Positions 52,376 through 64,000 of a stretch of DNA of 64,000 nucleotides are shown one piece after another. Position numbers and translations under genes: made by a program. Within the stretch, counting starts at the first letter, position 1, and each line of letters opens with the position of its first letter. The notes under the pieces were generated by a model that was not told where the DNA came from, did no database searches, and saw only the letters and a program-made list of their open reading frames with translations. Source of the stretch: Methylomonas montana (GTDB taxonomy: Bacteria > Pseudomonadota > Gammaproteobacteria > Methylococcales > Methylomonadaceae). The stretch is taken from NCBI RefSeq assembly GCF_030490285.1, contig NZ_CP129884.1, positions 4,154,001-4,218,000 on the forward strand, given 5' to 3'.

Positions 52376-52849
52376 TCACAACAAGCCATGCTCCGCAAAG
52401 GAATATACGGTCTCGCCAATGATGAAATGATCAAGTACGCGTACGTCAATCAAGGCCAAGGCCTCTTTGAGTTTCTCTGTAATCACGCGGTCCGCCTGAC
52501 TGGGCTCGCTAATCCCGGATGGGTGGTTGTGCGCCATGATTAGCGCCGCAGCATTATAGTGCAACGAGGCCTTGACCACTTCGCGCGGATACACGCTAGC
52601 GCCATCAATCGTCCCCCGGAACAATTCATCGCAAGCGATGACGCGGTGTTGATTGTCCAAGAACAGACACACAAATACTTCGTGCTCATACGGCGCCAAT
52701 TTTAACTTGATACAGTCCTTCGCCTTGTCCGGACTGGTCAAGGCTTCGCCTCGACTGAAAGTGCGGTTGTAAATCTGAATGGCCTCTAAGATGACATCCT
52801 GTTCATCGGCCATACGGTAACGATTATTGGTTCCTCGAATGAATAACAT
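52376..52849 (-). CDS. RadC family protein (JAB/MPN domain)
   Basis: A 157-residue RadC-type protein. The JAMM-like metal site is present in [22 protein letters not shown] (H-x-H-P-x7-S-x2-D). It lacks the helix-hairpin-helix N-terminus of chromosomal RadC, as is usual for copies carried by mobile elements and prophages. Function unknown despite the name; family members are not needed for DNA repair in E. coli. Its mRNA has a leader with a ten-pair helix that can close the ribosome site. Confidence 0.9.
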
Positions 52850-52920
52850 GGGCTTTCTCCCGTAATCTTAAAATTTGGAGAAAGCCGCTCCCTTCCGGGG
52901 TGGACTTTCTCCGGAAGGGT
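52850..52920 (-). promoter_or_regulatory. Structured leader of radC (leader family copy 1)
   Basis: Plus-strand CTTTCTCC occurs at 52853-52860, covering the ribosome site, and again at 52905-52912; its complement GGAGAAAG lies between them at 52877-52884. The middle arm can pair with the 5' arm (eight pairs) or with the ribosome site (ten pairs, GGAGAAAGCC with GGCTTTCTCC). A further hairpin, CCCTTCC at 52890-52896 with GGAAGGG at 52913-52919, encloses the 5' arm in its loop. Confidence 0.65.
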
Positions 52921-53122
52921 TGTCAAAAATATTCAAAGCCTCGTCAGCGATGTCTGCAGACGTTGACCGTCGGCAGAACACATTTCGCTAAAGACGCTTA
53001 AGCTGACGCCATTACTGCGTCAGGTGTTTTGGAATGATGCTTGTTAAGTGGTCGTTCGCCAGAAATCCAGCCAAAAGCCACGGGCTAACACAGCCGCGGC
53101 CATCGGCCCGATTGGGTTTCGA
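52921..53122. other. Non-coding spacer between the GHKL ATPase gene and radC
   Basis: About 200 bases downstream of the ATPase stop. CTGACGC at 53003-53009 and GCGTCAG at 53017-53023 form a perfect seven-base hairpin; a TCTGCAGACG/CCGTCGGCAGA-like repeat is at about 52949-52976. These may mark the end of the ATPase transcript. No gene is seen; a plus-strand open frame there is a shadow of the ATPase gene. Confidence 0.4.
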
Positions 53123-54718
53123 CTACACTTCCGCAACGGTGACGACATCGCCACTATTGCCGAGCACGATTTGAAAGGTCCTGGAAAACAGCGCCGGACA
53201 ACTGCCAAATTTCGGCAGCAGTCGTTGCAATGCATCCGCCGGTTTGTCAGCCGTATTGGCCACCACGAAGTTATGAAAATCCCATTCATCGGCTTCCTTG
53301 GCGGATTCCATGAACGTATCCCATTCGTCGTAGTAGGACGATGCCTGGCAAACCACCAATCCGGATGTCTCCCGACTTGGTACGATGAAGCGATCCTGGT
53401 CCTCGTCATATACGGCATCGTTATCGATGTCGACAGACTCGCCATTAAGGGTTAACCGGTACTGTTCACAAAATACCGCCTGACCACTTACCCATTGCCC
53501 CGCAAAATAAGCGCGGTGCGATTCATTGACTATGTCCAAAGTGACTTCCGGCCCATTCAAATCGACCAGGTACGAACATAGCCAATGCCCGGCATCCAGC
53601 CCCGGTCGAAATATTCGATAATCCCGGCGCCAAGCGAACATCCAGCGTAGCGCACCGACCTCATCGAGATCATCCAGGTCGGCAACTTTGACAAGGCCGT
53701 TTTCCACATCGCTTCGACTGACCGGTTGCGAAACCACTGCCAAATTGACGCTGCTGCAACCTTCCTTGATCGGATAATCCTGAATGATGGCCAATACCTG
53801 TTTCGGCAATAACGGCACGTCATTCAGTAAATCCAGGCAGCGGTAAGTTTTCAAGGTGTCGTAGCCAAGGACAAACTCCTCAGCAGACAATTCGCGTTTG
53901 ATCATTTCCATTCGTTGCCTGGCTTCCCGTTGCAGAACGTGCTTAACCTCAGCAATCACCTGTGCTTCATCGATCAATTTATCCCGGTCGGGCAACCGAG
54001 CGAAAAACCGGCTTGAATCCAAGTGGATGACATGACCGGGGTCTCGTTCGTGGTGACTGTGATAGACCGGTAAACCTTGCAGATACAGATGAAAATACTC
54101 CGACTGTCGCAACCAGTCTTCGCCCTGGGACAAGCCATACAAGTACAGATCGCCCAGTTCGATCTCGATGAACGGTAATGTTGACGTGACTGCTCGCGGC
54201 CGATCCAGGCTGACACCGTTAAAGCGCACCTCAATCGGAAATCCCCGCGCCAATCGACGCAACTGGGATTCAATCCGATCCGCTTCGGGTTTGAACTGGG
54301 TCAGCGTCAAACGAGTGATGCCTTGCCAGTCAGCAGGTTCGATCGCAATTGGTTGGAAGGCCAATAGCTCGGCCGTATCCACCGAAAATCGACCGCCTTT
54401 GCTGTCGACGCTGATGGCATCGCAGGCAAAGATTGCCGACAAAAATCCCAGGCCAAATGGGCATTCCCGTTCGATGACGTCAACATCCCAGCCCGACTCG
54501 GCCACGGTCAGCAACGTTTTCAAACAGGCGATGCCGCAGCCATCGTCACACACCGTCAAGGTTCGAGTGTCTTCCGAATACTCGAAACTGACGAACGTGG
54601 CGCCGGCGCGGCGGGCATTTTGCATCAATTCGCCCAGTACCGTGGTGGACTGGGTAAAGCTGAAACGCAGGTTGTTAATCAATTTTTCGGGGTTTACCGA
54701 TAATTGTGTGGTGTTCAT
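53123..54718 (-). CDS. GHKL/Hsp90-like ATPase domain protein
   Basis: A 531-residue protein with a Bergerat-fold ATP site at the N-terminus: ELMQNARRAGATFVS (N box), CDDGCGIACL (DxGxG) and a GLGFLSAIFACD lid region. The rest has no domain I recognise; it is acidic toward the C-terminus. ATG 54718 is chosen for the GAGGAA ribosome site. GHKL proteins of this size appear in mobile elements, sometimes in defence or DNA-maintenance modules, but no function can be assigned. Preceded by a structured leader. Confidence 0.75.
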   Translation of the reverse strand: MNTTQLSVNPEKLINNLRFSFTQSTTVLGELMQNARRAGATFVSFEYSEDTRTLTVCDDGCGIACLKTLLTVAESGWDVDVIERECPFGLGFLSAIFACDAISVDSKGGRFSVDTAELLAFQPIAIEPADWQGITRLTLTQFKPEADRIESQLRRLARGFPIEVRFNGVSLDRPRAVTSTLPFIEIELGDLYLYGLSQGEDWLRQSEYFHLYLQGLPVYHSHHERDPGHVIHLDSSRFFARLPDRDKLIDEAQVIAEVKHVLQREARQRMEMIKRELSAEEFVLGYDTLKTYRCLDLLNDVPLLPKQVLAIIQDYPIKEGCSSVNLAVVSQPVSRSDVENGLVKVADLDDLDEVGALRWMFAWRRDYRIFRPGLDAGHWLCSYLVDLNGPEVTLDIVNESHRAYFAGQWVSGQAVFCEQYRLTLNGESVDIDNDAVYDEDQDRFIVPSRETSGLVVCQASSYYDEWDTFMESAKEADEWDFHNFVVANTADKPADALQRLLPKFGSCPALFSRTFQIVLGNSGDVVTVAEV

Positions 54719-54800
54719 GTGAGTTCCTCGAATAAAAAGCCCTGAGGAAGCGACACAGTCCAACCCCGACGGGGAGAACGGATCATCTCCCCGAAGCGGG
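54719..54800 (-). promoter_or_regulatory. Structured leader of the GHKL ATPase gene (leader family copy 2)
   Basis: A hairpin with eight-base arms (CGGGGAGA at 54770-54777, TCTCCCCG at 54786-54793) is extended by CCCC at 54764-54767 with GGG at 54798-54800. Closer to the gene, GAGGAA at 54744-54749 is the exact complement of the TTCCTC at 54724-54729 that encodes the ribosome site, so six pairs could close it. Confidence 0.6.
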
Positions 54801-54849
54801 TGATACTGGCTAGGCCAGTGGTTAAGTTAAGTCCCGGTCTAACACCGAA

Positions 54850-56613
54850 TTACGATGCCAAAGCCAGGTCGGTAGCCGATGGTAGAGAACCCGTCCATTC
54901 CAACAAGCTGGATTGTTCGTTTTCCAACACCGCATCGGGATCGATGCCTCGGCTGGCCAACACGCTGCTCATCGCCTGGGTTAACAGACGATGACCTTTT
55001 TCCCGTTCCGACTCGCCGCCGTGCTTGATCGCCCAAAACGGATCGAAATGGACATGCCGGCTACTGCGTGGACACTGCTTGTTCACTTCGGTGTGAAACA
55101 CCCTGTCGAACGCTTCCGCCTGTTCGAACTGTTGCCAGAAACCTTGTCCGGCTTGGCTTTCCACGGGCGGCAACCAGCGACGCTGGCGACCGACCCAACG
55201 GTTCATCCGGTCGATCAGGGTTTTACTTTTCGGAAAAAAGTGAATGGTGCCAACGCCCGGATAATAGCGAACGTCAAAGTAACTGCCACCGATCCGCTTG
55301 CCAACCCGAAGCGCGTGAAAATGCTGCCGAAACACCGACACCAAACTCACTTCCGCTTCGGTCTTACCATCGAGCAAGGCAAACACCTTGTCGAAATCCG
55401 CTAATAGCCGTTCTGACTCCCAATTCAGGCCGTTCTGGTAAGCACTCGAGCCATGACCCGGCAGAATGAATCGCGTGGTTTTGATCCGCATCCCCAGCGT
55501 GCGATGTTTGTCATTGCTTTTCCAGCCCATGTAAAACACCGCGTTATCGCTGTAATAGCGGGTGATCAGATCGAACACATCGCACACCATGCTCAGTTGA
55601 ATTTCACCTTGCTGATCGATGATGCCTTGCAGAAAGCCATAGATATTCGGCACGGTAAATTCCAAGGACTTGACCGTTTCGAAATCCGACTCCAAGCGTT
55701 TCTGCGCCGCCGATGACAAGCGCGAAGTGACCTGAGTCGAGCGTAAAATGCTGGCCCAGGCCCGATTCTTCAGATCGTGATAGCGTTTAAACAGCGTCCG
55801 CTTCACCGCATCCGAAGACGACTCGTCTTCACTGCTGATACCGCCACCGCTCAGTTCGCCGAGCGTTTTGCCCAGCATAGCCCGATAACGGCTGGCACGG
55901 GCTTCACTGACCACGGCCTGTCGCGCTGCTTCGACCGCGGCATTGAACATCAACACCGCGTTATCGATGAAGGCATTCGGCAAGGCCAGCTCATGGGGCA
56001 AATGAAACTCGCCCGCTAAATCGTCGGCCTCTCGACGATCCTGGCGCAAATCGTCCAGAATACTGCCGAGGATGTCCTGTTCGAACGTCGAAGTTTTTTT
56101 CAACCAGACCAGAGCCACGTCGACCGGCGTTTTGCGTTCGGCATCCTCGCCGGCGAACATTTCTTGCAGAAACTCGACCTCGCCGTGCTGCTCGATCAAC
56201 CGTAATAACAACTGGCGTTCTTTCGAAAACGGATTGCGCACAGTTTCGGCATTGAGAATGGCGACGATTTCACCGTCAAACAAGATCTCCCAAGCCTTCA
56301 ACACGTGTTTGGCGCCTTCGGCAAACGGCGGATTCATGATGATGTGAGAATAGACACTGCCGCTTTGAAACTGCAGAAAATCCATTCCCACCACAGCAAA
56401 TCCGTCATCGCGCAGAGCCGCGTGTTTGCGGATATCGATTTCAATGCAATCGATCGGCAAACGTTTACCGTACTGGTATGGCCCTGGACGAAGCAAATGT
56501 CCTTCGCCTGCTGAGGGCTCTAATACCCGAGCGAATTGTTGGTTCTTGAACATCGCCCAAGCTTTACGACTCAGTGCTTCTGGCGTGGGGTAATATTGAT
56601 AAGGGTCTGTCAT
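54850..56613 (-). CDS. DUF4942 protein with N-terminal class I methyltransferase domain
   Basis: A 587-residue protein. The N-terminal about 190 residues form an adenine-N6-type SAM methyltransferase: QYYPTPEALSRKAW, VLEPSAGEGHLL (motif I) and the catalytic IIMNPPFAEG (N-P-P-F). The remainder is a DUF4942 region (about 330-510) with DNAVFYMGWKSNDKHRT and YFDVRYYPGVGTIHFFP. Such fusions are common on ICEs and plasmids; DNA modification is plausible, but no recognition sequence is known. ATG 56613 is chosen for GGAG six bases upstream; it shares 16 identical bases of start region with the VWA gene. Confidence 0.85.
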   Translation of the reverse strand: MTDPYQYYPTPEALSRKAWAMFKNQQFARVLEPSAGEGHLLRPGPYQYGKRLPIDCIEIDIRKHAALRDDGFAVVGMDFLQFQSGSVYSHIIMNPPFAEGAKHVLKAWEILFDGEIVAILNAETVRNPFSKERQLLLRLIEQHGEVEFLQEMFAGEDAERKTPVDVALVWLKKTSTFEQDILGSILDDLRQDRREADDLAGEFHLPHELALPNAFIDNAVLMFNAAVEAARQAVVSEARASRYRAMLGKTLGELSGGGISSEDESSSDAVKRTLFKRYHDLKNRAWASILRSTQVTSRLSSAAQKRLESDFETVKSLEFTVPNIYGFLQGIIDQQGEIQLSMVCDVFDLITRYYSDNAVFYMGWKSNDKHRTLGMRIKTTRFILPGHGSSAYQNGLNWESERLLADFDKVFALLDGKTEAEVSLVSVFRQHFHALRVGKRIGGSYFDVRYYPGVGTIHFFPKSKTLIDRMNRWVGRQRRWLPPVESQAGQGFWQQFEQAEAFDRVFHTEVNKQCPRSSRHVHFDPFWAIKHGGESEREKGHRLLTQAMSSVLASRGIDPDAVLENEQSSLLEWTGSLPSATDLALAS

Positions 56614-56685
56614 GGTGTACTCCAAAGAATCCCCTGACGACCGATTTATCCCTGGCGGGATAGAATCATCCCGCAGGGGTAAAAT
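56614..56685 (-). promoter_or_regulatory. Structured leader of the DUF4942 gene (leader family copy 3)
   Basis: Hairpin CCCTG-g-CGGGAT (56650-56661) with ATCCCG-CAGGG (56668-56678). The same CAGGGG arm (56674-56679) is also complementary to CCCCTG at 56631-56636, giving an alternative, mutually exclusive stem nearer the start codon. Confidence 0.6.
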
Positions 56686-56728
56686 AAAAAAATCTCGGCT
56701 TAACCGAGTGTCGAAATCAAACGGCGCG

Positions 56729-57226
56729 TCAGATCAACGCAAACCGCTTACCTTGAATGAAGTCCTGATACTGCCGGGCTTCGGTTTTTGCCTTGAACCG
56801 GGCTTGCACGCTGCCGTCGATCCAGATTTCCCAGGGCAAGCGTTTAAGCTCACCTCTCACCAGTTCCACCTCGCCGACGCGAAAGTCTTCGTGTTGGTAA
56901 AGCACCTGGCGCGGGCTATCGACACGAACGATGCAATGATCCATTAATGCCGGACCGCCGATGTCACCGGGTTCTATCAACAACGGCACTTTGATCGTGC
57001 CCATCGAGCGACCAATCCAGCCGATGACATCGTGTTCATCGAGCCAGGATTGGCCGGTTTGGATATCGCCGTAATACAGCCGGATTTTGCGTCGGCTGTA
57101 CCGCAACTGTTCCAGCAACTCGACCACCGGTTCCGGTGTGTCGGCGTGATAACAGGTGCCGGACGGTAATCGCTGATACTGGATGCAATGACCCGTGCCG
57201 AACGTGTGTTCAAAGACTTGATTCAT
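56729..57226 (-). CDS. Hypothetical protein of the integrative element
   Basis: A 165-residue cytoplasmic protein I do not recognise. It has no signal peptide or membrane helix. Visible features: VVELLEQLRYSRRKIRLYYGDIQTGQSW, then DEHDVIGWIGRSMGTIKVPLLIE and a C-terminal RFKAKTEARQYQDFIQGKRFAL. The ATG at 57226 has a GAGGA upstream and is preceded by a structured leader of the repeated type, which supports it as a real gene. Its 3' end is about 115 bases from the DUF4942 gene. Confidence 0.7.
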   Translation of the reverse strand: MNQVFEHTFGTGHCIQYQRLPSGTCYHADTPEPVVELLEQLRYSRRKIRLYYGDIQTGQSWLDEHDVIGWIGRSMGTIKVPLLIEPGDIGGPALMDHCIVRVDSPRQVLYQHEDFRVGEVELVRGELKRLPWEIWIDGSVQARFKAKTEARQYQDFIQGKRFALI

Positions 57227-57298
57227 GATGTTGTCCTCAATGAAAAAACGGAAACATCACGAATCCCCAGCGGGAATAGGACATTCCCGTGTGGGTGG
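57227..57298 (-). promoter_or_regulatory. Structured leader of the 165-residue protein gene (leader family copy 4)
   Basis: Hairpin CGGGAAT (57271-57277) and ATTCCCG (57283-57289) with a five-base loop, enclosed by CCCC at 57265-57268 and GGG at 57293-57295. Alternative stem: ACGGAAA (57249-57255) with TTCCCGT (57284-57290), seven pairs with one G-U. Confidence 0.6.
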
Positions 57299-57374
57299 AT
57301 AAAAATGAGTGCCGAATCGGATGATTTGGCTAACTCAGGCTTTTACAAATAGCGCGTCACAACGGGCGCATTTT

Positions 57375-58037
57375 TTAGGATTGGATGCCCAGTGCAGGTT
57401 TTCCCAAGGCTTGCACTGCCAGAGGTATTAACTGATCCAAATCGTCCCAATCAATACTGCCGCCGTTGGTTTCGCCTTGTTGATAGGCTTCAATCAAACC
57501 CCGACAAACCCGCATGGCTGCTTGTTCCTGCTTCAATTGCCGTACCGAATAATCCGGTTCCGGCAGTTGTTCAACAGCCACGCATTCCCATACCAGGCTT
57601 TCATCGCCCGACTCAAGGTATTCATCCGACAATAACGGTATGGCGGCGGTGTCATCCCAAATGGTGGCGTCATTGAATGCCTGTTCGGCAATTTGTTGTG
57701 CCGCTTCGGGACTATCCGCGGTGATACCCACCGACACCCGGTGCACATAGTCGATCTCGTAGGACACTACGAATAGTCGATTCATGCCTTCCGGCGTGGC
57801 ATTGGCTAAGGCTGGTTCTTGGACTGGAGATTCGGTTTCCACCGATTCACCCTCGATCAATGCGATTTCATAAGGCTCGATCTCCTTGTTACAGTCCGGG
57901 CAGCGATCGTTACAGCCGCTATCCCATACATCCGCCCATTCGGTTTTGCAGTAAGGGCAGCGGTACTGATTCAAATACCAAACACCTTCAATTTCAGAAT
58001 GCGAATGGCTAACGCCATTTTCTAATGTTGATGACAT
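57375..58037 (-). CDS. Zinc-ribbon hypothetical protein of the integrative element
   Basis: A 220-residue protein. Residues about 25-50 form a zinc ribbon: CPYCKTEWADVW and CNDRCPDCNKEIEPYE. An acidic linker follows. The middle domain (about 85-150) begins NRLFVVSYEIDYVHRVSVGI and resembles no family I can name. The acidic C-terminus ends in QALGKPALGIQ. ATG 58037 lies eight bases after GGAGG; ATG 58043 is an alternative two codons earlier. Preceded by a structured leader. Confidence 0.72.
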   Translation of the reverse strand: MSSTLENGVSHSHSEIEGVWYLNQYRCPYCKTEWADVWDSGCNDRCPDCNKEIEPYEIALIEGESVETESPVQEPALANATPEGMNRLFVVSYEIDYVHRVSVGITADSPEAAQQIAEQAFNDATIWDDTAAIPLLSDEYLESGDESLVWECVAVEQLPEPDYSVRQLKQEQAAMRVCRGLIEAYQQGETNGGSIDWDDLDQLIPLAVQALGKPALGIQS

Positions 58038-58100
58038 GGTCATTGCCTCCAAAAAATCGCAGGAACGATCACCCGGCAGGATGACGTTCCTGCAGGTAAA
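58038..58100 (-). promoter_or_regulatory. Structured leader of the zinc-ribbon protein gene (leader family copy 5)
   Basis: GCAGGAACG (58059-58067) and CGTTCCTGC (58085-58093) form a perfect nine-pair stem. Inside it, CAGGA (58077-58081) and TCCTG (58088-58092) form a competing hairpin, so only one of the two can exist at a time. The ribosome site CCTCC (58046-58050) lies just downstream of the stem in the transcript. Confidence 0.6.
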
Positions 58101-58202
58101 TAACGCTGATTAAAGCCGAAAAACGGCTCGTTCAGCGGGGTTGAATTCGCGTAAAAATCGGTATATGGTGGCTAAAACTCATTAAAAAGCAGAGAAAAAG
58201 CC

Positions 58203-58580
58203 ATGATTGACGATATTTTGCGCATTTTTGACTTCCTCAGTCCGAAGCGGACAGAGGAGCTGATTCCAACGAAAAAGCCGATGGCTATTCCTGTCGACGA
58301 ACCACTAAAAGTCGTTCGACATTGCCAACAAATTTTCCAAAAATTGGATGTTTTGGAAGCCGACGTGCTCAATCGGGTTGACGATCCTGAACAAGCCTGG
58401 CCGTTTCTAAACAAAATTCGCCAAATACGTCGGGAAACCCAGAACGACCTGTTGTCGTTATTGCCCGAAGGTAGCTGGGTGTTTGCTGATGAATCCAACC
58501 AACGCGAGATTCCGGTTCGCAGCATCAATACAGGAACCGGAATCACGCTACGAGTATTCAATGGCGGGCTTGCTGATTAG
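58203..58580 (+). CDS. Small hypothetical protein on the opposite strand
   Basis: A 125-residue frame on the plus strand, against the direction of all other element genes in view. It starts with an AGAG eight or so bases upstream. The sequence is balanced and soluble (MIDDILRIFDFLSPKRTEEL, then VVRHCQQIFQKLDVLEADVLN, EGSWVFADESNQREIPV), with no known domain. Its last 23 bases overlap the 3' end of the convergent gene. It looks like a real protein by composition, but no family supports it. Confidence 0.5.
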   Translation: MIDDILRIFDFLSPKRTEELIPTKKPMAIPVDEPLKVVRHCQQIFQKLDVLEADVLNRVDDPEQAWPFLNKIRQIRRETQNDLLSLLPEGSWVFADESNQREIPVRSINTGTGITLRVFNGGLAD

Positions 58581-59091
58581 CCGGTGCGTTGGCATTACCT
58601 TTCAGCGCTTCCCTCAATTGAAATACCTGTTGGGCAGTCTTAGCGGATTTGTCGTCCACCAGGGCTGAATCGCCCACTTTTTTAGACCGCCGACGGGGTT
58701 TAGCCTCGGTTTCCGCCGAGACGATAGTCGGTTTGATTTTCAATAAATCCCGCTCTAGTTTGGCGATTTCAATATCCGCCTCGTAGAGTTTGATCGTTTT
58801 CTGTTTGGCTTGATATTGGAGTTCCAAGCGATCCAGCTCGCGATTCGTTTCACGATTGCGACTATGAATTTCCTGACGCACCGAATCTGACATCGCCAAC
58901 CAATCCACTTCATGACGGATTTGGGGCAAGATCACCGGTAATCGGTTTCGAGCTAGGCGCTTTGCACGATAGCTGTGAAACGTTTGAGACGCATGTTTCA
59001 ATGCGCCCAGCAGTTGCAATGCTGTTGCCCAAATCACCCGCAAGGCGAGGATAAACATAGCCAGTAGGATGATGCCGAAAATAAAGTTCAT
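58558..59091 (-). CDS. Membrane-anchored hypothetical protein with coiled coil
   Basis: A 177-residue protein. Residues about 1-25 are a single membrane helix (FIFGIILLAMFILALRVIWATALQLL). A long charged helical region (about 60-120) contains QEIHSRNRETNRELDRLELQ and is probably a coiled coil. A basic segment with KPRRRSKKVG and a low-complexity end follow. ATG 59091 is chosen because a strong AAAGGAG precedes it; the frame extends 35 residues further. No function is known. Confidence 0.7.
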   Translation of the reverse strand: MNFIFGIILLAMFILALRVIWATALQLLGALKHASQTFHSYRAKRLARNRLPVILPQIRHEVDWLAMSDSVRQEIHSRNRETNRELDRLELQYQAKQKTIKLYEADIEIAKLERDLLKIKPTIVSAETEAKPRRRSKKVGDSALVDDKSAKTAQQVFQLREALKGNANAPANQQARH

Positions 59092-59170
59092 TGAAGTTCT
59101 CCTTTGAAAATTTAAGAAAACACTTCGAATGAACAGCGCCCAGTCGGGCGATGGTCGCCCGAAGTGGGAT
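59092..59170 (-). promoter_or_regulatory. Structured leader of the membrane-anchored protein gene (leader family copy 6)
   Basis: Hairpin CGGGCG (59145-59150) and CGCCCG (59156-59161) with a five-base loop, enclosed by CCCA (59139-59142) and TGGG (59165-59168). An alternative seven-pair stem joins CACTTCG (59121-59127) and CGAAGTG (59160-59166). The GAAGT at 59093-59097, between ribosome site and start codon, is also complementary to the first arm. Confidence 0.65.
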
Positions 59171-59444
59171 GAATTGCAGACAATTTGCCAGGGCAAACTG
59201 CGATTAACATCGGGCTTAACGTACCCGACACGATCACGGCTTAACGTGCTCGCCGTCTAAAGACGGAACGCCGACCGAAGTCGGATTCACCATTCTTTGA
59301 AAAGAACGCATGAAATGTCTGTTTGTCGAATGGGCTCCAGGAAGTGAGTGCATTCGACAAACTGCGTTTGCAATCAGCTACCCATAGCCACAATCCAAGG
59401 CATTACGCCAAGGATTGGGCTACGGATAATTGACTGGCCGAGAC
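59171..59444. repeat. Palindrome-rich non-coding region downstream of the VWA gene
   Basis: No gene is seen. Structures: GTTTGTCGAATG at 59321-59332 with CATTCGACAAAC at 59351-59362 (perfect 12-base arms, 18-base loop); CCGTCT/AGACGG at 59253-59266; CCGAC/GTCGG at 59271-59284; a direct repeat GGCTTAACGT at 59213-59222 and 59238-59247; and a long imperfect hairpin TAGCC-a-CAATCC with GGATTG-GGCTA at about 59384-59425. These could terminate or process the VWA transcript. Confidence 0.6.
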
Positions 59445-61265
59445 TTAGGCCGCCAACAACACCGCTTTCGAGAGATCGAACAATTGTGCTCTCAGCTCTG
59501 AAAGATCGTTAATGGTGATGGCAATCGGAAACAGATGACTGACATCCAGTCCCAAACCAATGCCCACCGTTTCGATACCGCTATCCCGGCAGCGCTGCAA
59601 AATATCCAGCGTGCTCAGCGTATCGTTGGGTTGACCATCGGTCATCACCATCAATACCTTGCGCGGTTCTCGGCAACGCAGCAGTGACGCCGCACCAAAC
59701 CAAATCGCTTCAGTCATCGGCGTACTGCCGGTGGCTGCCAGCGAGAAGGCACCGGTGCGGACATTCACCCGTTGACCATGCTCCAGCAACTGGAACACCG
59801 AATCATCCTGAAGCCCGGGAAACGCAGTGACGCCAGGATTAACCCCCGGAATACCTTCAAAGGCCAACGCCAGCGCCAAAGTGGCTTCCAACGCAATCGG
59901 CATTCGCGATCCAATCGGTTGCCCTTGGCTATCAGTCACCTGATAACCCATGCTTTCGGATTTATCCAGTAACAGATGAATCGCCGTATTGGGTGCTGCT
60001 TTGACCTGCTTACGCTGAAACACCTTGGTTTCACCGAGCGGCAGGCGGTGTAAGCGCTTGCCATCCATCCGCCGACCACGACAGGCGTGTTGCGAGCGGT
60101 TGAGAGTTTGCGATTGCACCAAGCCTTGCAAAGCGGCGCGGATTTTTCCCGATTCGCATTGCACCTTACGAAGCAAAAATGCACCGGTTCGATCATCCAT
60201 GGGCGGTTCATGGCCGCTAGGCATCAGCAACTCCGATACATTTTCCGCGGCCAACGACAACGCCGATTTCAATGACTCGAATAAATCTTGCTCAATGTCA
60301 CCTTCTCCGGCGGACAACAAGGTCTGCAAGACGTCCATTGGGTCGGCAATCTCCGTATCATCTTCATCATCCCCTTGTTGGTTGGATGTCAAGCTGTCGG
60401 ATGGCATTGCCGGTTCATCGTCAGGATTTTCTGGATCCGACGCACCATTACCCACTGGTTCTGAAAACGATTCGTCATCAGTGTCATTTGCTAACTGTTC
60501 ACCGGGTTCCATGTCATCCTTCGAATCCGGGGCATTCGAATCGTCCGAATCGGCTGATTCACCATCCTGATCCGTATCGCCCGGTTCAGGCGACGATTCC
60601 CTATCGGCCGATATCTGGTTCTGATTACGCTGCTGTTGTTGCTCGAATTCCTGCTCAATCATGGTCAGGATACGATCAGTCAACATCAGGCAATCACTCT
60701 CCGATTGTAAACCCTCCGGGACTTCGGACAGCAAGCCTTTCAACCGCGTCACCGCGCCGATGGGAAACTTCGCCTTCAATGAGGTTTCGGTTTCTTCGAC
60801 CAACGGCCGTAACGCCGCTTGACCCAATACCTTGGCTCGCAAACTTTTCAACACGAAGCCGTACAGAATGTTGGCCGGATGATCGTCGATAAGGCTGGCC
60901 ACAAAGTCGCCTTTAGCAATCATTTTTTCGATCACCGTACCTATCGTCAACCGCGTACCCGGAAAATCTTTCGCCAGTTCATGCTCGATGCGGACGTCTT
61001 CAATCGCATTACATAATCGCCGGCGTAAGACCGAACTGCCGTAATGCAGCGTAAAATCCGAATAGCGAATATGTGCCGCTTCGTGGGCTAACAGGCCCCA
61101 GGCGACATCCTGATAATCCGGATCATCGCCGTCATAGGCTGGCAATTGAATCGATTGTCCATCGGTATAGGCATTATCACCGCCGACACTGACTTTGACG
61201 CCAAAGCGATTGCCAATGGCAGCAGCAACAATGGGGAATGCATTGTGTAGGGTTCTATTTTTCAT
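59445..61265 (-). CDS. VWA domain protein, CobT-like
   Basis: A 606-residue protein. The N-terminal part has a zinc-peptidase-like LLAHEAAHIRYSDF (HExxH). A very acidic, repetitive stretch of Asp, Ser and Glu spans about 220-310. The C-terminal von Willebrand A domain has the MIDAS motif LLLDKSESMGYQ and a conserved VMTDGQPNDT. It resembles the CobT subunit of cobaltochelatases and is the usual partner of a MoxR/CobS ATPase, which ends 2.2 kb upstream on the same strand. No cobalamin role is implied. ATG 61265 follows GGAG; the frame extends four residues earlier. Confidence 0.85.
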   Translation of the reverse strand: MKNRTLHNAFPIVAAAIGNRFGVKVSVGGDNAYTDGQSIQLPAYDGDDPDYQDVAWGLLAHEAAHIRYSDFTLHYGSSVLRRRLCNAIEDVRIEHELAKDFPGTRLTIGTVIEKMIAKGDFVASLIDDHPANILYGFVLKSLRAKVLGQAALRPLVEETETSLKAKFPIGAVTRLKGLLSEVPEGLQSESDCLMLTDRILTMIEQEFEQQQQRNQNQISADRESSPEPGDTDQDGESADSDDSNAPDSKDDMEPGEQLANDTDDESFSEPVGNGASDPENPDDEPAMPSDSLTSNQQGDDEDDTEIADPMDVLQTLLSAGEGDIEQDLFESLKSALSLAAENVSELLMPSGHEPPMDDRTGAFLLRKVQCESGKIRAALQGLVQSQTLNRSQHACRGRRMDGKRLHRLPLGETKVFQRKQVKAAPNTAIHLLLDKSESMGYQVTDSQGQPIGSRMPIALEATLALALAFEGIPGVNPGVTAFPGLQDDSVFQLLEHGQRVNVRTGAFSLAATGSTPMTEAIWFGAASLLRCREPRKVLMVMTDGQPNDTLSTLDILQRCRDSGIETVGIGLGLDVSHLFPIAITINDLSELRAQLFDLSKAVLLAA

Positions 61266-61330
61266 GGTGTACTCCAAAATTTAGGGGCAAACCACGACCC
61301 CAGCGGGACATGATTTTGCCCCAATGGGTT
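61266..61330 (-). promoter_or_regulatory. Structured leader of the VWA gene (leader family copy 7)
   Basis: GGGGCAAA (61284-61291) and TTTGCCCC (61315-61322) form a perfect eight-pair stem enclosing CCCCAGCGGG (61298-61307). The enclosed GGG and the flanking CCCC/GGG runs can form competing short stems. The start-proximal 16 bases are identical to those of the DUF4942 gene. Confidence 0.6.
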
Positions 61331-61350
61331 AAGTGTTAAATGGCGTCTGA

Positions 61351-62559
61351 TCAGAACCAATAGTCCTGATCAGAATCGTCCGCTTCCTCATCGTCTCCCG
61401 CCGTCACCGTTGCCGGTTCTGCTGAGTTTTCCGAATCAGAGGCTTGTTCGGCATCGTGCCCGGTTTCCCGATCGGGCTGACACTTATCCAGCAAGACATC
61501 CAAAGCCCAGTCATCGGTTACCGATTCAGCTTCGGGTTCGTCGTCAAAGATACCGTCAAACAAATCGGTAAAATCCGTTTCGTCTGTAGCGGCATCAGCT
61601 AATACGGGAATGACGAGGGTTGATGATGCGGTCAGTTCAGATGATTCTGACGACGCCTGATCGACGGTTTCTACAACATCAATCTCAACATCAGCATCAG
61701 TCTCGACAACCGGAGCTTGCCCAGCCAACAAACCTTCACCGTGCCGCCGGGTTTTATCCGGATCGGCCAGCAACATCGCCGTAGCGAGGATTTCCTGCAG
61801 CAAACTGCCTTCAATCGATCCCCGATTCGGGATTTTGCCGAGCAAGTCATCGATCGTCGCGACCACCGGTGCCACCCGATGATCCAAAAAACTCAAACCA
61901 TCAAGCTTGTCGCGGATGCGTTTGATCGGCCTGAGCGCGTTGCGGGTGACTTGTTCCTTGCCGAGCAACGAGTGCTCGACCAGCAAGTTGGCGTCCGCCG
62001 CGATTTCATGGAACATCTGCTCGCTTAACGAGCCGATTTTTGATTCCAGGCGTTCCACCTCCTGTTTTGGCAACTGGTCTGGTAAGGCGACCGAGACCAC
62101 CAGGTAGTCAAACGTCAAGCGGGTGGCGACCAATGCCACCGAGTCGATGGCTTTTTCGATAATGCCGGCAAATTCCGGATGTTTAATCATCCAGTCTTGT
62201 ACCGCCGCATCGTAGCCATCCAGAAACTCGGTCCGTGCCTGGGCAAAGTCACCGGCGATGCGATCCAGTTCCGTTGTGACCTGCGCCGCTGCCACGACCG
62301 GTACGACGAATCCACCCAGAAATCGGGTGCCGACGCGTAAACAAATACGTTCGGCTTCCTTTTTCAGGCGGTTGAACACCGATAGCCGATCCGGATCGAG
62401 CAAGCGCTTCGAGCCCAAACTGGCCAAATCCTCCGGCGGCAACTTGCTACCGTCGGCCAATACTAGATCTTCCTTGTTGAGCTTTTTGCGCGCGCCGTAA
62501 ATCGTAGCGTCGACCTTGATCAAGACGACTTGATCCAAAATGAGTTGGGTTTGTGTCAT
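61351..62559 (-). CDS. DUF3150 domain protein
   Basis: A 402-residue cytoplasmic protein. The first about 290 residues match the DUF3150 pattern: LDQVVLIKVDATIYGARKKLNKEDLVL, KEAERICLRVGTRFLGGFVVPV, then mostly helical sequence. From about 300 the sequence is acidic and of low complexity, ending in EEADDSDQDYWF. Members accompany CobS/CobT-like genes on ICEs and phages; function unknown. The ATG has a strong GGAGG upstream. Confidence 0.83.
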   Translation of the reverse strand: MTQTQLILDQVVLIKVDATIYGARKKLNKEDLVLADGSKLPPEDLASLGSKRLLDPDRLSVFNRLKKEAERICLRVGTRFLGGFVVPVVAAAQVTTELDRIAGDFAQARTEFLDGYDAAVQDWMIKHPEFAGIIEKAIDSVALVATRLTFDYLVVSVALPDQLPKQEVERLESKIGSLSEQMFHEIAADANLLVEHSLLGKEQVTRNALRPIKRIRDKLDGLSFLDHRVAPVVATIDDLLGKIPNRGSIEGSLLQEILATAMLLADPDKTRRHGEGLLAGQAPVVETDADVEIDVVETVDQASSESSELTASSTLVIPVLADAATDETDFTDLFDGIFDDEPEAESVTDDWALDVLLDKCQPDRETGHDAEQASDSENSAEPATVTAGDDEEADDSDQDYWF

Positions 62560-62622
62560 GTGAACCTCCTATGGAAGAAGGCTCACTGACCCCGCAGGGG
62601 CGAATGGCCCCTTCCGGGTGAA
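62560..62622 (-). promoter_or_regulatory. Structured leader of the DUF3150 gene (leader family copy 8)
   Basis: Hairpin GGGGC (62597-62601) and GCCCC (62607-62611) with a five-base loop, enclosed by CCCG (62591-62594) and CGGG (62615-62618). Alternative pairing joins GAAGG (62577-62581) with CCTTC (62610-62614). GGAAG at 62573-62577 is also complementary, with one G-U, to the ribosome site CCTCC (62565-62569), giving a three-base-loop hairpin. Confidence 0.62.
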
Positions 62623-62681
62623 TGTTAAAAAATGCCTGTGTCGAACTCGATACAGGAATAAAAGGCTGGGCCTTCAGTAAA

Positions 62682-63434
62682 TCAAAACCAATGATCGGTT
62701 TGATCGGCCATGGCCAACGCCAGATCGAGCCGAGGTTTCAAGAGCCCCAGGCTTTCCGCCAGCGGCCTTATCGCCTCAATGTCGGTATCGAATAATGCCA
62801 ATACCTCGGTTTCGGCTTTCAAGTCCGACGACACATCACGGCCAGTTTCGCTGGCAATGCCGACCAAAACGCCGGGAAATGCCGCATGCTTCAAGGCCAT
62901 CATCCACAGCCAAGGCAACACCCCGTGTTCACGGTGGATTTGCCCGCTGAGATCAAAGGCTTCTTCGCCCAGACTGGCATTGATCAGTCGTTGCCAACCG
63001 GACCAGTTACTTGCGGCAAATCCTTGAGCCTGAGACCAGGCTTCCAGATCGCCCAACCAACGGCGTAGCGCGATACCCATGTCGAGCAAGGTAGCGTGCC
63101 CGGCGCGACAATCGACATGCCAATACAGCTTGTCGACCGCGACTGGTGGCATTTCGATCGACACTGTTACTGGATCGGCTATCGGCGCGGAACGGGGCAA
63201 ACGGATGTTGCCATCGGTATCGATTTCGACTTTGCCGACAAACACATAGCCTTTGGCCTGTTTTTGTCGTTCGATATCGTGCTGGCGTATTCCCGTTCGT
63301 GTGTTGCTGCTCGGCAGACGAGAATCCGTTTTGCCCCAGCGGGTGGTGATACTGCCATCCGAATTACTTCGGACCGCCCAATCTTTGGAACTGCCGTCAG
63401 CATTACGATGCCGGTATAAAGTCCAGACGCTCAT
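62682..63434 (-). CDS. WGR domain protein
   Basis: A 250-residue protein. The N-terminal about 65 residues form a WGR-like domain (VWTLYRHRNADGSSKDWAV, SDGSITTRWGKTDSR), known as a nucleic-acid-binding fold in PARP proteins and MolR. The rest (about 80-250) is helical, with no family I can name. ATG 63434 lies two bases after the stop of the ATPase gene, and the WGR protein and ATPase genes are clearly one operon. No separate leader precedes it. Confidence 0.78.
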   Translation of the reverse strand: MSVWTLYRHRNADGSSKDWAVRSNSDGSITTRWGKTDSRLPSSNTRTGIRQHDIERQKQAKGYVFVGKVEIDTDGNIRLPRSAPIADPVTVSIEMPPVAVDKLYWHVDCRAGHATLLDMGIALRRWLGDLEAWSQAQGFAASNWSGWQRLINASLGEEAFDLSGQIHREHGVLPWLWMMALKHAAFPGVLVGIASETGRDVSSDLKAETEVLALFDTDIEAIRPLAESLGLLKPRLDLALAMADQTDHWF

Positions 63435-63436
63435 GG

Positions 63437-64000
63437 CTAATTCGCCCAATCATCCCCAAACACATCCTTGGCGATGCGATGAATCGCTTCGCGTTCGGCG
63501 GGTTCGGCTCTAAAGGTCAAGGCCCGATCCAGCGAATAAGCCAAGGCATTGGGCGCACTTTTGAAAGTGGCCACCAATGACGCCCAACGCACTAAACCGC
63601 GCGTCGATAAAGTCACCGATAACATGCCACCGCCATCCGCGCCGCCGATGAAGACTTTACGAATCTGATTAGCGACCTTGATCATGCTTTCGCGCACCGT
63701 TTCCGGCATGCTCGGCACCACATCGGCCAACAGTTTCATTTCGTCTTCGGGTTCGGGGTAGCCGACTTCCATCAATCTAAAGCGGTCTAAAAACGCCAGG
63801 TTCTGACGTAACACCCCTTGGTACAAGCCCGACTGATCACCGCTGCCAGCACTATTGCCGGTGGCCACCAAACGAAACTTCGGGTGCGGGACAATTACGT
63901 CGCCGGTTTGCGGAATTGTTAGAGGTTTCCCTTCAACAATTTCATTCAAGCCAATCAGCTCGGCAGGATCAATGGCATCGATCTCGTTGATCAACAATAC
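63437..64000 (-). CDS. MoxR/CobS-like AAA ATPase (C-terminal part)
   Basis: The visible 187 residues are the C-terminal part of an AAA ATPase; the 5' part lies beyond the right edge. Seen: VLLINEIDAIDPAE (Walker B with sensor-type residues), FRLVATGNSAG (sensor 1) and the helical lid with STRGLVRWASLVATFK containing a likely arginine-finger/sensor 2 region. It resembles CobS and MoxR proteins, which act with VWA partners. With the VWA and DUF3150 genes it forms a module of unknown function on this element. Confidence 0.82.
   Translation of the reverse strand, partial: VLLINEIDAIDPAELIGLNEIVEGKPLTIPQTGDVIVPHPKFRLVATGNSAGSGDQSGLYQGVLRQNLAFLDRFRLMEVGYPEPEDEMKLLADVVPSMPETVRESMIKVANQIRKVFIGGADGGGMLSVTLSTRGLVRWASLVATFKSAPNALAYSLDRALTFRAEPAEREAIHRIAKDVFGDDWAN

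Follow-up and report, generated by a model that had tools for sequence, protein, structure and literature searches.

A family of leader RNAs with competing helices in the recombination operon of a mobile element of Methylomonas montana

Translational riboswitches and RNA thermometers set an anti-Shine-Dalgarno (anti-SD) sequence against an anti-anti-SD sequence. In SXT a translational attenuator precedes bet, and IncA/C plasmids have it as well, according to the passage of a review that deals with it (Garriss et al. 2013, cited in PMC4542580). A candidate cis-regulatory RNA of Proteobacteria, the radC RNA motif RF01754, takes its name from radC in a table of PMC2864571. We analysed a window of 64,000 nucleotides (nt) of the Methylomonas montana genome (NZ_CP129884.1, positions 4,154,001 to 4,218,000), whose right end holds the minus-strand recombination operon of a mobile DNA element. 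An earlier, sequence-only reading of the window had placed leaders with alternative RNA stems before eight of its genes. All eight are present on the minus strand where it had put them, but its count is incomplete. Twelve operon genes harbour a leader of one design, the four additional ones lying just past the window end before the AAA gene that we take to be CobS-like, the 71-aa, the ~112-aa and the bet genes.

The leaders are composed of five segments, A to E. A reads ACCC; B consists of GGGG and an apparent copy of the ribosome site and the sequence after it; C reads CCCC...GGGU; and E runs from the SD to the AUG. Three helices compete: P1 is formed by A and B with C, P2 by B with D, and P3 by D with E. 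P1 and P3 can coexist, and P2 is incompatible with both.

A MAFFT alignment across genes (45 leaders, those of the membrane coiled-coil and GHKL genes excluded) left the helices out of register; RNAalifold returned no structure, and the excess of paired columns was scattered. Since such alignment fails, pairwise duplex energies and swap tests were used instead of a covariance model, the energy of a leader's own segment partners being compared with that of partners from other leaders. For 12 gene families (exo and WGR, which abut the preceding gene, and ssb, whose leader is a variant, were left out), own partners paired better than foreign ones for P2 (-14.79 vs -8.53 kcal/mol), P3 (-13.31 vs -8.85) and P1 (-11.52 vs -7.77), each with a permutation p of 5e-5, the floor of the test. 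The control pairings B:E and C:E gave p values of 0.54 and 0.26. The own partner ranked first in 8/12 families for P2 and in 9/12 for P3.

A second set of leaders was chosen by P1 only, from the 25 loci described below (186/415 genes, 118 non-redundant leaders). Its own B:D pairing reached -14.79 vs -9.17 kcal/mol (z -24.1) and its own D:E pairing -13.22 vs -8.46 kcal/mol (z -20.6); the z of -17.6 for P1 is a result of the selection. The control pairings B:E and C:E yielded z values of -1.8 and -1.4, and 13 leaders from control loci gave -0.7 for P2 and -1.2 for P3. Gene-specific pairing in two data sets, together with these negative controls, bears out the earlier view that the leaders are conserved RNA structures with competing stems and not simple repeats. 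Inside two gene families, those of DUF3150 and the 112-aa gene, P2 was paired in 94% and 93% of cells, with 33-69% in slid versions, and P3 in 89% and 79%, with 30-70% in slid versions. Alignment A2 omitted L078 and L079 (2/33).

The leaders recur in relatives of the operon, among them IncC-like plasmids and islands from other genera. A scan for Bet relatives collected 62 loci, 25 of which also encode DUF3150. Our three-helix filter was applied to genes with a good SD. In the 25 loci 164/415 such genes passed it, vs 4/563 in the 37 loci devoid of DUF3150 (Fisher p 6e-65); thresholded P1 alone was found before 186/415 vs 15/563 genes. Homologous elements without the stems had been proposed as a refutation; 24/25 DUF3150-carrying loci have at least two leaders, and L127 has none. 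The 25 loci include Providencia, Shewanella, Alcanivorax, Vibrio, Edwardsiella, Azomonas, Methyloversatilis, Methylobacter, Marinobacter, Psychromonas and Halomonas. Eight of 13 genes of the window operon passed the filter, in comparison with 0/22 non-element genes (good SD, window positions 1-48000), 0/3 beside a second element copy of the same genome, and 0/8 and 0/7 genes elsewhere in the two elements. P1 alone preceded 0 and 1 of these last two sets of genes and 1/23 in window positions 1-48500.

DUF3150 itself was found at 44 places in 20/61 genomes, our own included. Forty of the 42 foreign places were fetched (all except G005:C2 and G034:C217), which with our own two makes 42 copies. 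With a permissive finder, in which the stem starts with CC and ends with GG, and no score cut, P1 recurs gene by gene in these copies (420/426), including before bet in all 36 of the 42 copies in which the bet start could be set. The label 'Methylomonas-type' that we use for these families reflects their nearest named plasmid relative, a Methylomonas plasmid. The bet leader passes the three-helix filter in the IncC plasmid and in Shewanella. Among 370 genomes sampled from the class, 10 harbour DUF3150 (ours included), and the nine other loci gave 1/9, 1/13, 1/8, 2/10, 5/16, 1/19, 0/9, 1/16 and 1/13 passing genes, the last two being doubtful by eye. The GenBank phage collection contained one DUF3150 record, AB571791.1, and a scan of IMG/VR that reaches close relatives only contained none. 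We consider these leaders a genuine and widely distributed family of structured RNAs.

In three annotated plasmids, leaders precede 31/44 genes with a gap of at least 40 nt (first genes included) and 0/11 genes with a gap below 40 nt, and 28/31 leaders have 33-39 nt between P1 and the last base of the start codon; this distance is more variable in the Methylomonas-type families. The exo and WGR genes of the window operon, whose starts overlap or abut the preceding gene, have no leader; in the IncC plasmid exo stands apart from its neighbour and has one. P3 pairs the SD region and may include the AUG, as in CAUGAC:GUCAUG before the 112-aa gene; the AUG is paired in 51/164 filter-passing leaders. 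The corresponding figure for SD pairing (149/164) is circular, the filter having used P3, and we do not count it as evidence. These features, with the bet attenuator of SXT as described in the review as a precedent, support the shared translational control that had been proposed. Upstream of the CCC, the two preceding positions, which lie beyond the stem demanded by the finder, are A in 86/113 and 87/113 leaders.

Folding of the second set gave a minimum free energy (MFE) structure of the P1 form in 103/118 leaders, and among the last 14 nt a median of 9 are paired. When the SD has to be free, the P2 form is the best fold in 99/118. A C:C' mini-hairpin caps P2 in that fold in 97/118, and at least three bases of the P1 loop enter P2 in 90/118. 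The SD-free fold costs a median of 4.2 kcal/mol, and 2.2 in the 420 Methylomonas-type leaders. The leaders are thus predicted to be off by default, with the on state within energetic reach. Some Methylomonas-type families have a P2-form MFE in many members (23/31 GHKL, 25/37 membrane coiled-coil and 22/40 112-aa leaders), so that set-points seem to be gene-specific.

Each leader is probably a cis-acting two-state translational switch before an independently started gene. In the default state, P1 would sequester B, and D would then pair with E, hiding the SD and in some leaders the AUG. In the second state B, the ribosome-site mimic, would pair with D in one long hairpin capped by C:C', leaving E open to the ribosome. 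Since the P1 loop belongs to B, D could nucleate on it and displace P1. Translation would be lowered in the first state and permitted in the second. A copy stands before nearly every operon gene that needs its own translation start, and none before abutting genes. Our best guess for the trigger is a factor recognizing the conserved 5' AACCC...GGGG part, and conservation of the 5' AACCC hints at such a shared factor. An extended proposal, which we put forward tentatively and hold to be possible rather than probable, is that these bistable leaders form a new class that gates, one at a time, the units of translation in an entire conjugative-element operon. They would respond to one common trans signal read through AACCC...GGGG, the B-D-E set of each copy being tuned to its own gene, and would make up an RNA regulon within a single operon.

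Several observations weigh against the switch. In the three annotated plasmids, 13/44 genes with room for a leader fail the filter. The GHKL leader of the window fits poorly, 9/200 shuffles folding equally well. Own partners rank low in two families, eighth for P2 in that of the membrane coiled-coil gene and fourth of 12 for both P2 and P3 in that of DUF4942. The B:E control of the second set is slightly better than swapped partners (p 0.04), and the best SD-free fold of the 71-aa family is P2 in only 11/33 leaders. Inside the DUF3150 and 112-aa families both-side changes are few, with 2 and 4 cells for P2 and 7 and 4 for P3 of 277-351 per helix; these counts were matched by 66 and 13 (P2) and by 6 and 0 (P3) of 500 shuffles. 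Covariation scores as high were obtained in 306/500 (P2) and 474/500 (P3) shuffles for DUF3150 and in 65/500 for P2 of the 112-aa gene; only P3 of the 112-aa gene exceeds its shuffles (6/500 as high). The earlier statement that both arms change together therefore holds across genes, by the swap tests, but within one gene family column covariation is modest or, by some measures, absent. RNA structure is backed mainly across genes and modestly within gene families.

An alternative trigger is translational coupling, in which P1 is melted by the ribosome that finishes the upstream gene, allowing P2 to form and the following gene to be opened. The A arm starts at most 20 nt from the closest preceding stop of a predicted gene on the same strand in 49/115 leaders, and many gaps of the IncC plasmid are leader-sized. 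However, for 35/115 leaders such a stop is over 100 nt away, and the gaps before the radC, membrane coiled-coil and zinc-ribbon leaders of the window span ~200, 280 and 460 nt, the last with an opposite-strand ORF within it. Coupling is possible for some leaders and hardly so for those at least 200 nt away; as an account of the family we find it unlikely. That ORF (58203-58580, plus strand), between the zinc-ribbon and membrane genes, encodes 125 aa; it has no Pfam match, and a counterpart of 125 aa is present in the second element copy.

The leaders might instead be transcription attenuators, with P2 and a U-rich sequence as an intrinsic terminator and P1 as the antiterminator. At least 5 U among the 8 nt after P2 are found in 308/420 Methylomonas-type leaders, another point against the translational switch, and the likeness is textbook-like in several leaders (GHKL, bet and the 112-aa gene). 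Yet only 45/164 leaders of the 25 other loci have such a U tract. Moreover, P1, the supposed readthrough state, leaves D free to hide the ribosome site through P3, the gene-specific D:E match comes close to that of P2 in strength, and a terminator does not need the fixed distance between P1 and start codon of the annotated plasmids. A dozen serial terminators in one operon would also be expected to cause strong polarity. We regard attenuation of transcription as improbable.

Equally hard to favour are static translational dampers, in which P3, with P1, holds initiation low or makes it temperature-dependent and P2 plays no separate role. A static damping hairpin would account for P3 without P2, which also counts against the switch, and in the predicted default, the P1 form, most of E is paired. 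The SD-free fold becomes less costly on warming (median 6.7 kcal/mol at 20 C, 4.2 kcal/mol at 37 C and 3.1 kcal/mol at 45 C), but this is expected of any helix. A damper requires no match between B and D, whereas the match observed is specific to each gene and no weaker than D:E. Lastly, DNA-level repeats, protein-binding sites or a dispersed repeat family with no RNA function, to which shared stretches between IncC leaders (see below) might point, are disfavoured by pairing fitted to each gene's own ribosome site and by the lack of leaders before abutting genes, and we deem them highly implausible.

In order of transcription the operon encodes ssb, bet, the ~112-aa protein, exo, the 71-aa protein, the CobS-like AAA protein, a 250-aa protein that we presume to be WGR-like, DUF3150, VWA, a membrane coiled-coil protein, a zinc-ribbon protein, a 165-aa protein, DUF4942, a GHKL-type protein and RadC. 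The names bet, exo and ssb were taken from annotated relatives. The recombination operon of an IncC plasmid has many of these genes in common with it. The genes and leaders below are on the minus strand; P2 and P3 energies are in kcal/mol, and z values compare folds with 200 dinucleotide shuffles. In 7/8 window leaders 0/200 shuffles fold equally well.

The radC gene (52376..52849; RadC-like JAB domain, PF04002) follows a leader at 52847..52919, with P1 at 52890-52919, B at 52902-52913, D at 52876-52887, E (SD region) at 52850-52861 and the start codon at 52847-52849 (P2 -16.6, P3 -19.2, z -4.96). Upstream, the gene of a presumed GHKL-type ATPase (53123..54718; no Pfam match), a name already used in the sequence-only reading, has its leader at 54716..54800 (P1 54764-54800, B 54779-54797, D 54738-54762, E 54717-54730), with the weakest z of the eight, -1.73 (P2 -15.8, P3 -11.9). 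The leader of the DUF4942 methyltransferase gene (54850..56613; PF13708) spans 56611..56680, with P1 at 56651-56677 and an outer stem possibly reaching 56680, B at 56663-56674, D at 56632-56643 and E at 56613-56628; its P2 (-6.9) and P3 (-6.3) are both the weakest (z -3.17). Upstream of this leader, at ~56694-56708, lies a terminator-like element, a short and conserved inverted repeat (CTCGGTTAAGCCGAG) with T runs after it, which is present in most of the distinct copies listed.

The 165-aa gene of unknown product (56729..57226) is preceded by a leader at 57224..57296 (P1 57267-57294, B 57279-57291, D 57247-57262, E 57224-57237) whose E pairing includes the AUG (P2 -13.3, P3 -13.8, z -3.93). 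For the zinc-ribbon-like gene, also of unknown product (57375..58037; no Pfam match), the leader occupies 58035..58098, with P1 at 58072-58096, B at 58082-58093, D at 58056-58071 and E at 58036-58053 (P2 -18.8, P3 -11.4, z -3.59). That of the membrane coiled-coil gene (58558..59091; no Pfam match) is at 59089..59168, with P1 59140-59167, B 59152-59164, D 59113-59136 and E 59089-59105 (P2 -8.7, P3 -11.3, z -3.97). The VWA gene (59445..61265; VWA domain, CobT C-terminal) has a leader at 61263..61330 (P1 61300-61327, B 61311-61323, D 61284-61297), and the pairing of E (61263-61276) includes the AUG (P2 -14.0, P3 -11.6, z -3.46). The DUF3150 gene (61351..62559; PF11348) is preceded by a leader at 62557..62621, with P1 at 62590-62618, B at 62602-62612, D at 62578-62588 and E at 62559-62569 (P2 -8.7, P3 -13.8, z -5.30).

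The AAA leader lies outside the window, at genome positions 4218376-4218450. The leaderless WGR-like gene (62682..63434) begins 2 nt past the AAA stop codon. Directly upstream of its relatives in L049 and L076 we noticed sequence that presumably resembles a group II intron 3' end. Complementarity to the ribosome site had been assigned to copies 1, 2, 6 and 8; it is far more general, P3 reaching -9.6 kcal/mol or lower in 11/12 leaders, all except that of DUF4942. The ssb leader of the Methylomonas type (the main copy, L041, L042 and L055) has a variant sequence, CGCCGCGC with GGGCGCGGC, and may follow the same principle of competing arms.

The second element copy, near 1837554 of the same genome (1812000-1872000, L006-L008), is diverged (75% identity), and ten leaders stand in front of the corresponding genes there. 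Its DUF4942 gene matches over 91 of 587 residues only, and the 60 kb read around it contained no radC match. As a possible start of a leader peptide, an AUG within B is in frame with VWA in this copy, but it is not conserved. In the IncC plasmid (L080, positions 4341, 9176 and 17832), the AAA and DUF3150 leaders do not differ in the first 69 of 90 nt, and a close copy precedes a third gene; leaders thus seem to have been duplicated as modules.

The comparison with Rfam that had been suggested gave no match at a leader. At gathering score, Rfam 15 detected only a tRNA in the window; positions 52800-64000 gave three sub-threshold matches at E up to 10, none at a leader and none to RF01754, and L080, L082 and L083 gave five at E up to 5, all inside genes. 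No catalogued aptamer was found at the leaders in these scans. RF01754 was detected in 0/8 genomes or records at a 40-bit cut-off (best score 23.5 bits); its sub-threshold matches also occur in control genomes, and the two in the operon of the UP202 plasmid fall within the genes for AAA and Bet rather than in leaders. Neither the dispersed family nor its three-helix switch turned up in Rfam or in the literature searched, a comparison that did not extend to motifs published outside Rfam.

Should most genes of the recombination operon be under an RNA switch of their own, transcripts made from the known master promoter would not by themselves amount to protein, and post-transcriptional timing, such as after entry into a new cell, would become directly testable. 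IncC and SXT-like elements, which share the operon, are major vehicles of gene transfer. Each element would also provide about a dozen natural versions of a single bistable RNA design fitted to different ribosome sites, useful for studies of co-transcriptional folding and for the search for a regulator.

In comparison with known systems, the leaders share the anti-SD vs anti-anti-SD logic of riboswitches and thermometers, but they have no recognizable aptamer, their P1 is ~28 nt long and many copies occur in one operon. RF01754 differs from them in its model of 149 positions. The attenuator of SXT, by the review's description, resembles them in place, before bet in an ssb-bet-exo operon, and in level, that of translation, and the IncC bet leader (L080, 6914) fits the P1/P2/P3 design. 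The attenuator is described there as single, whereas here a leader stands before most operon genes that start translation independently, in many lineages. The arm that mimics the ribosome-binding site and the gene-specific alternative helix go beyond that description as well. As far as we searched, both the family of leaders and its design are new, although a precedent exists for one member, that of bet.

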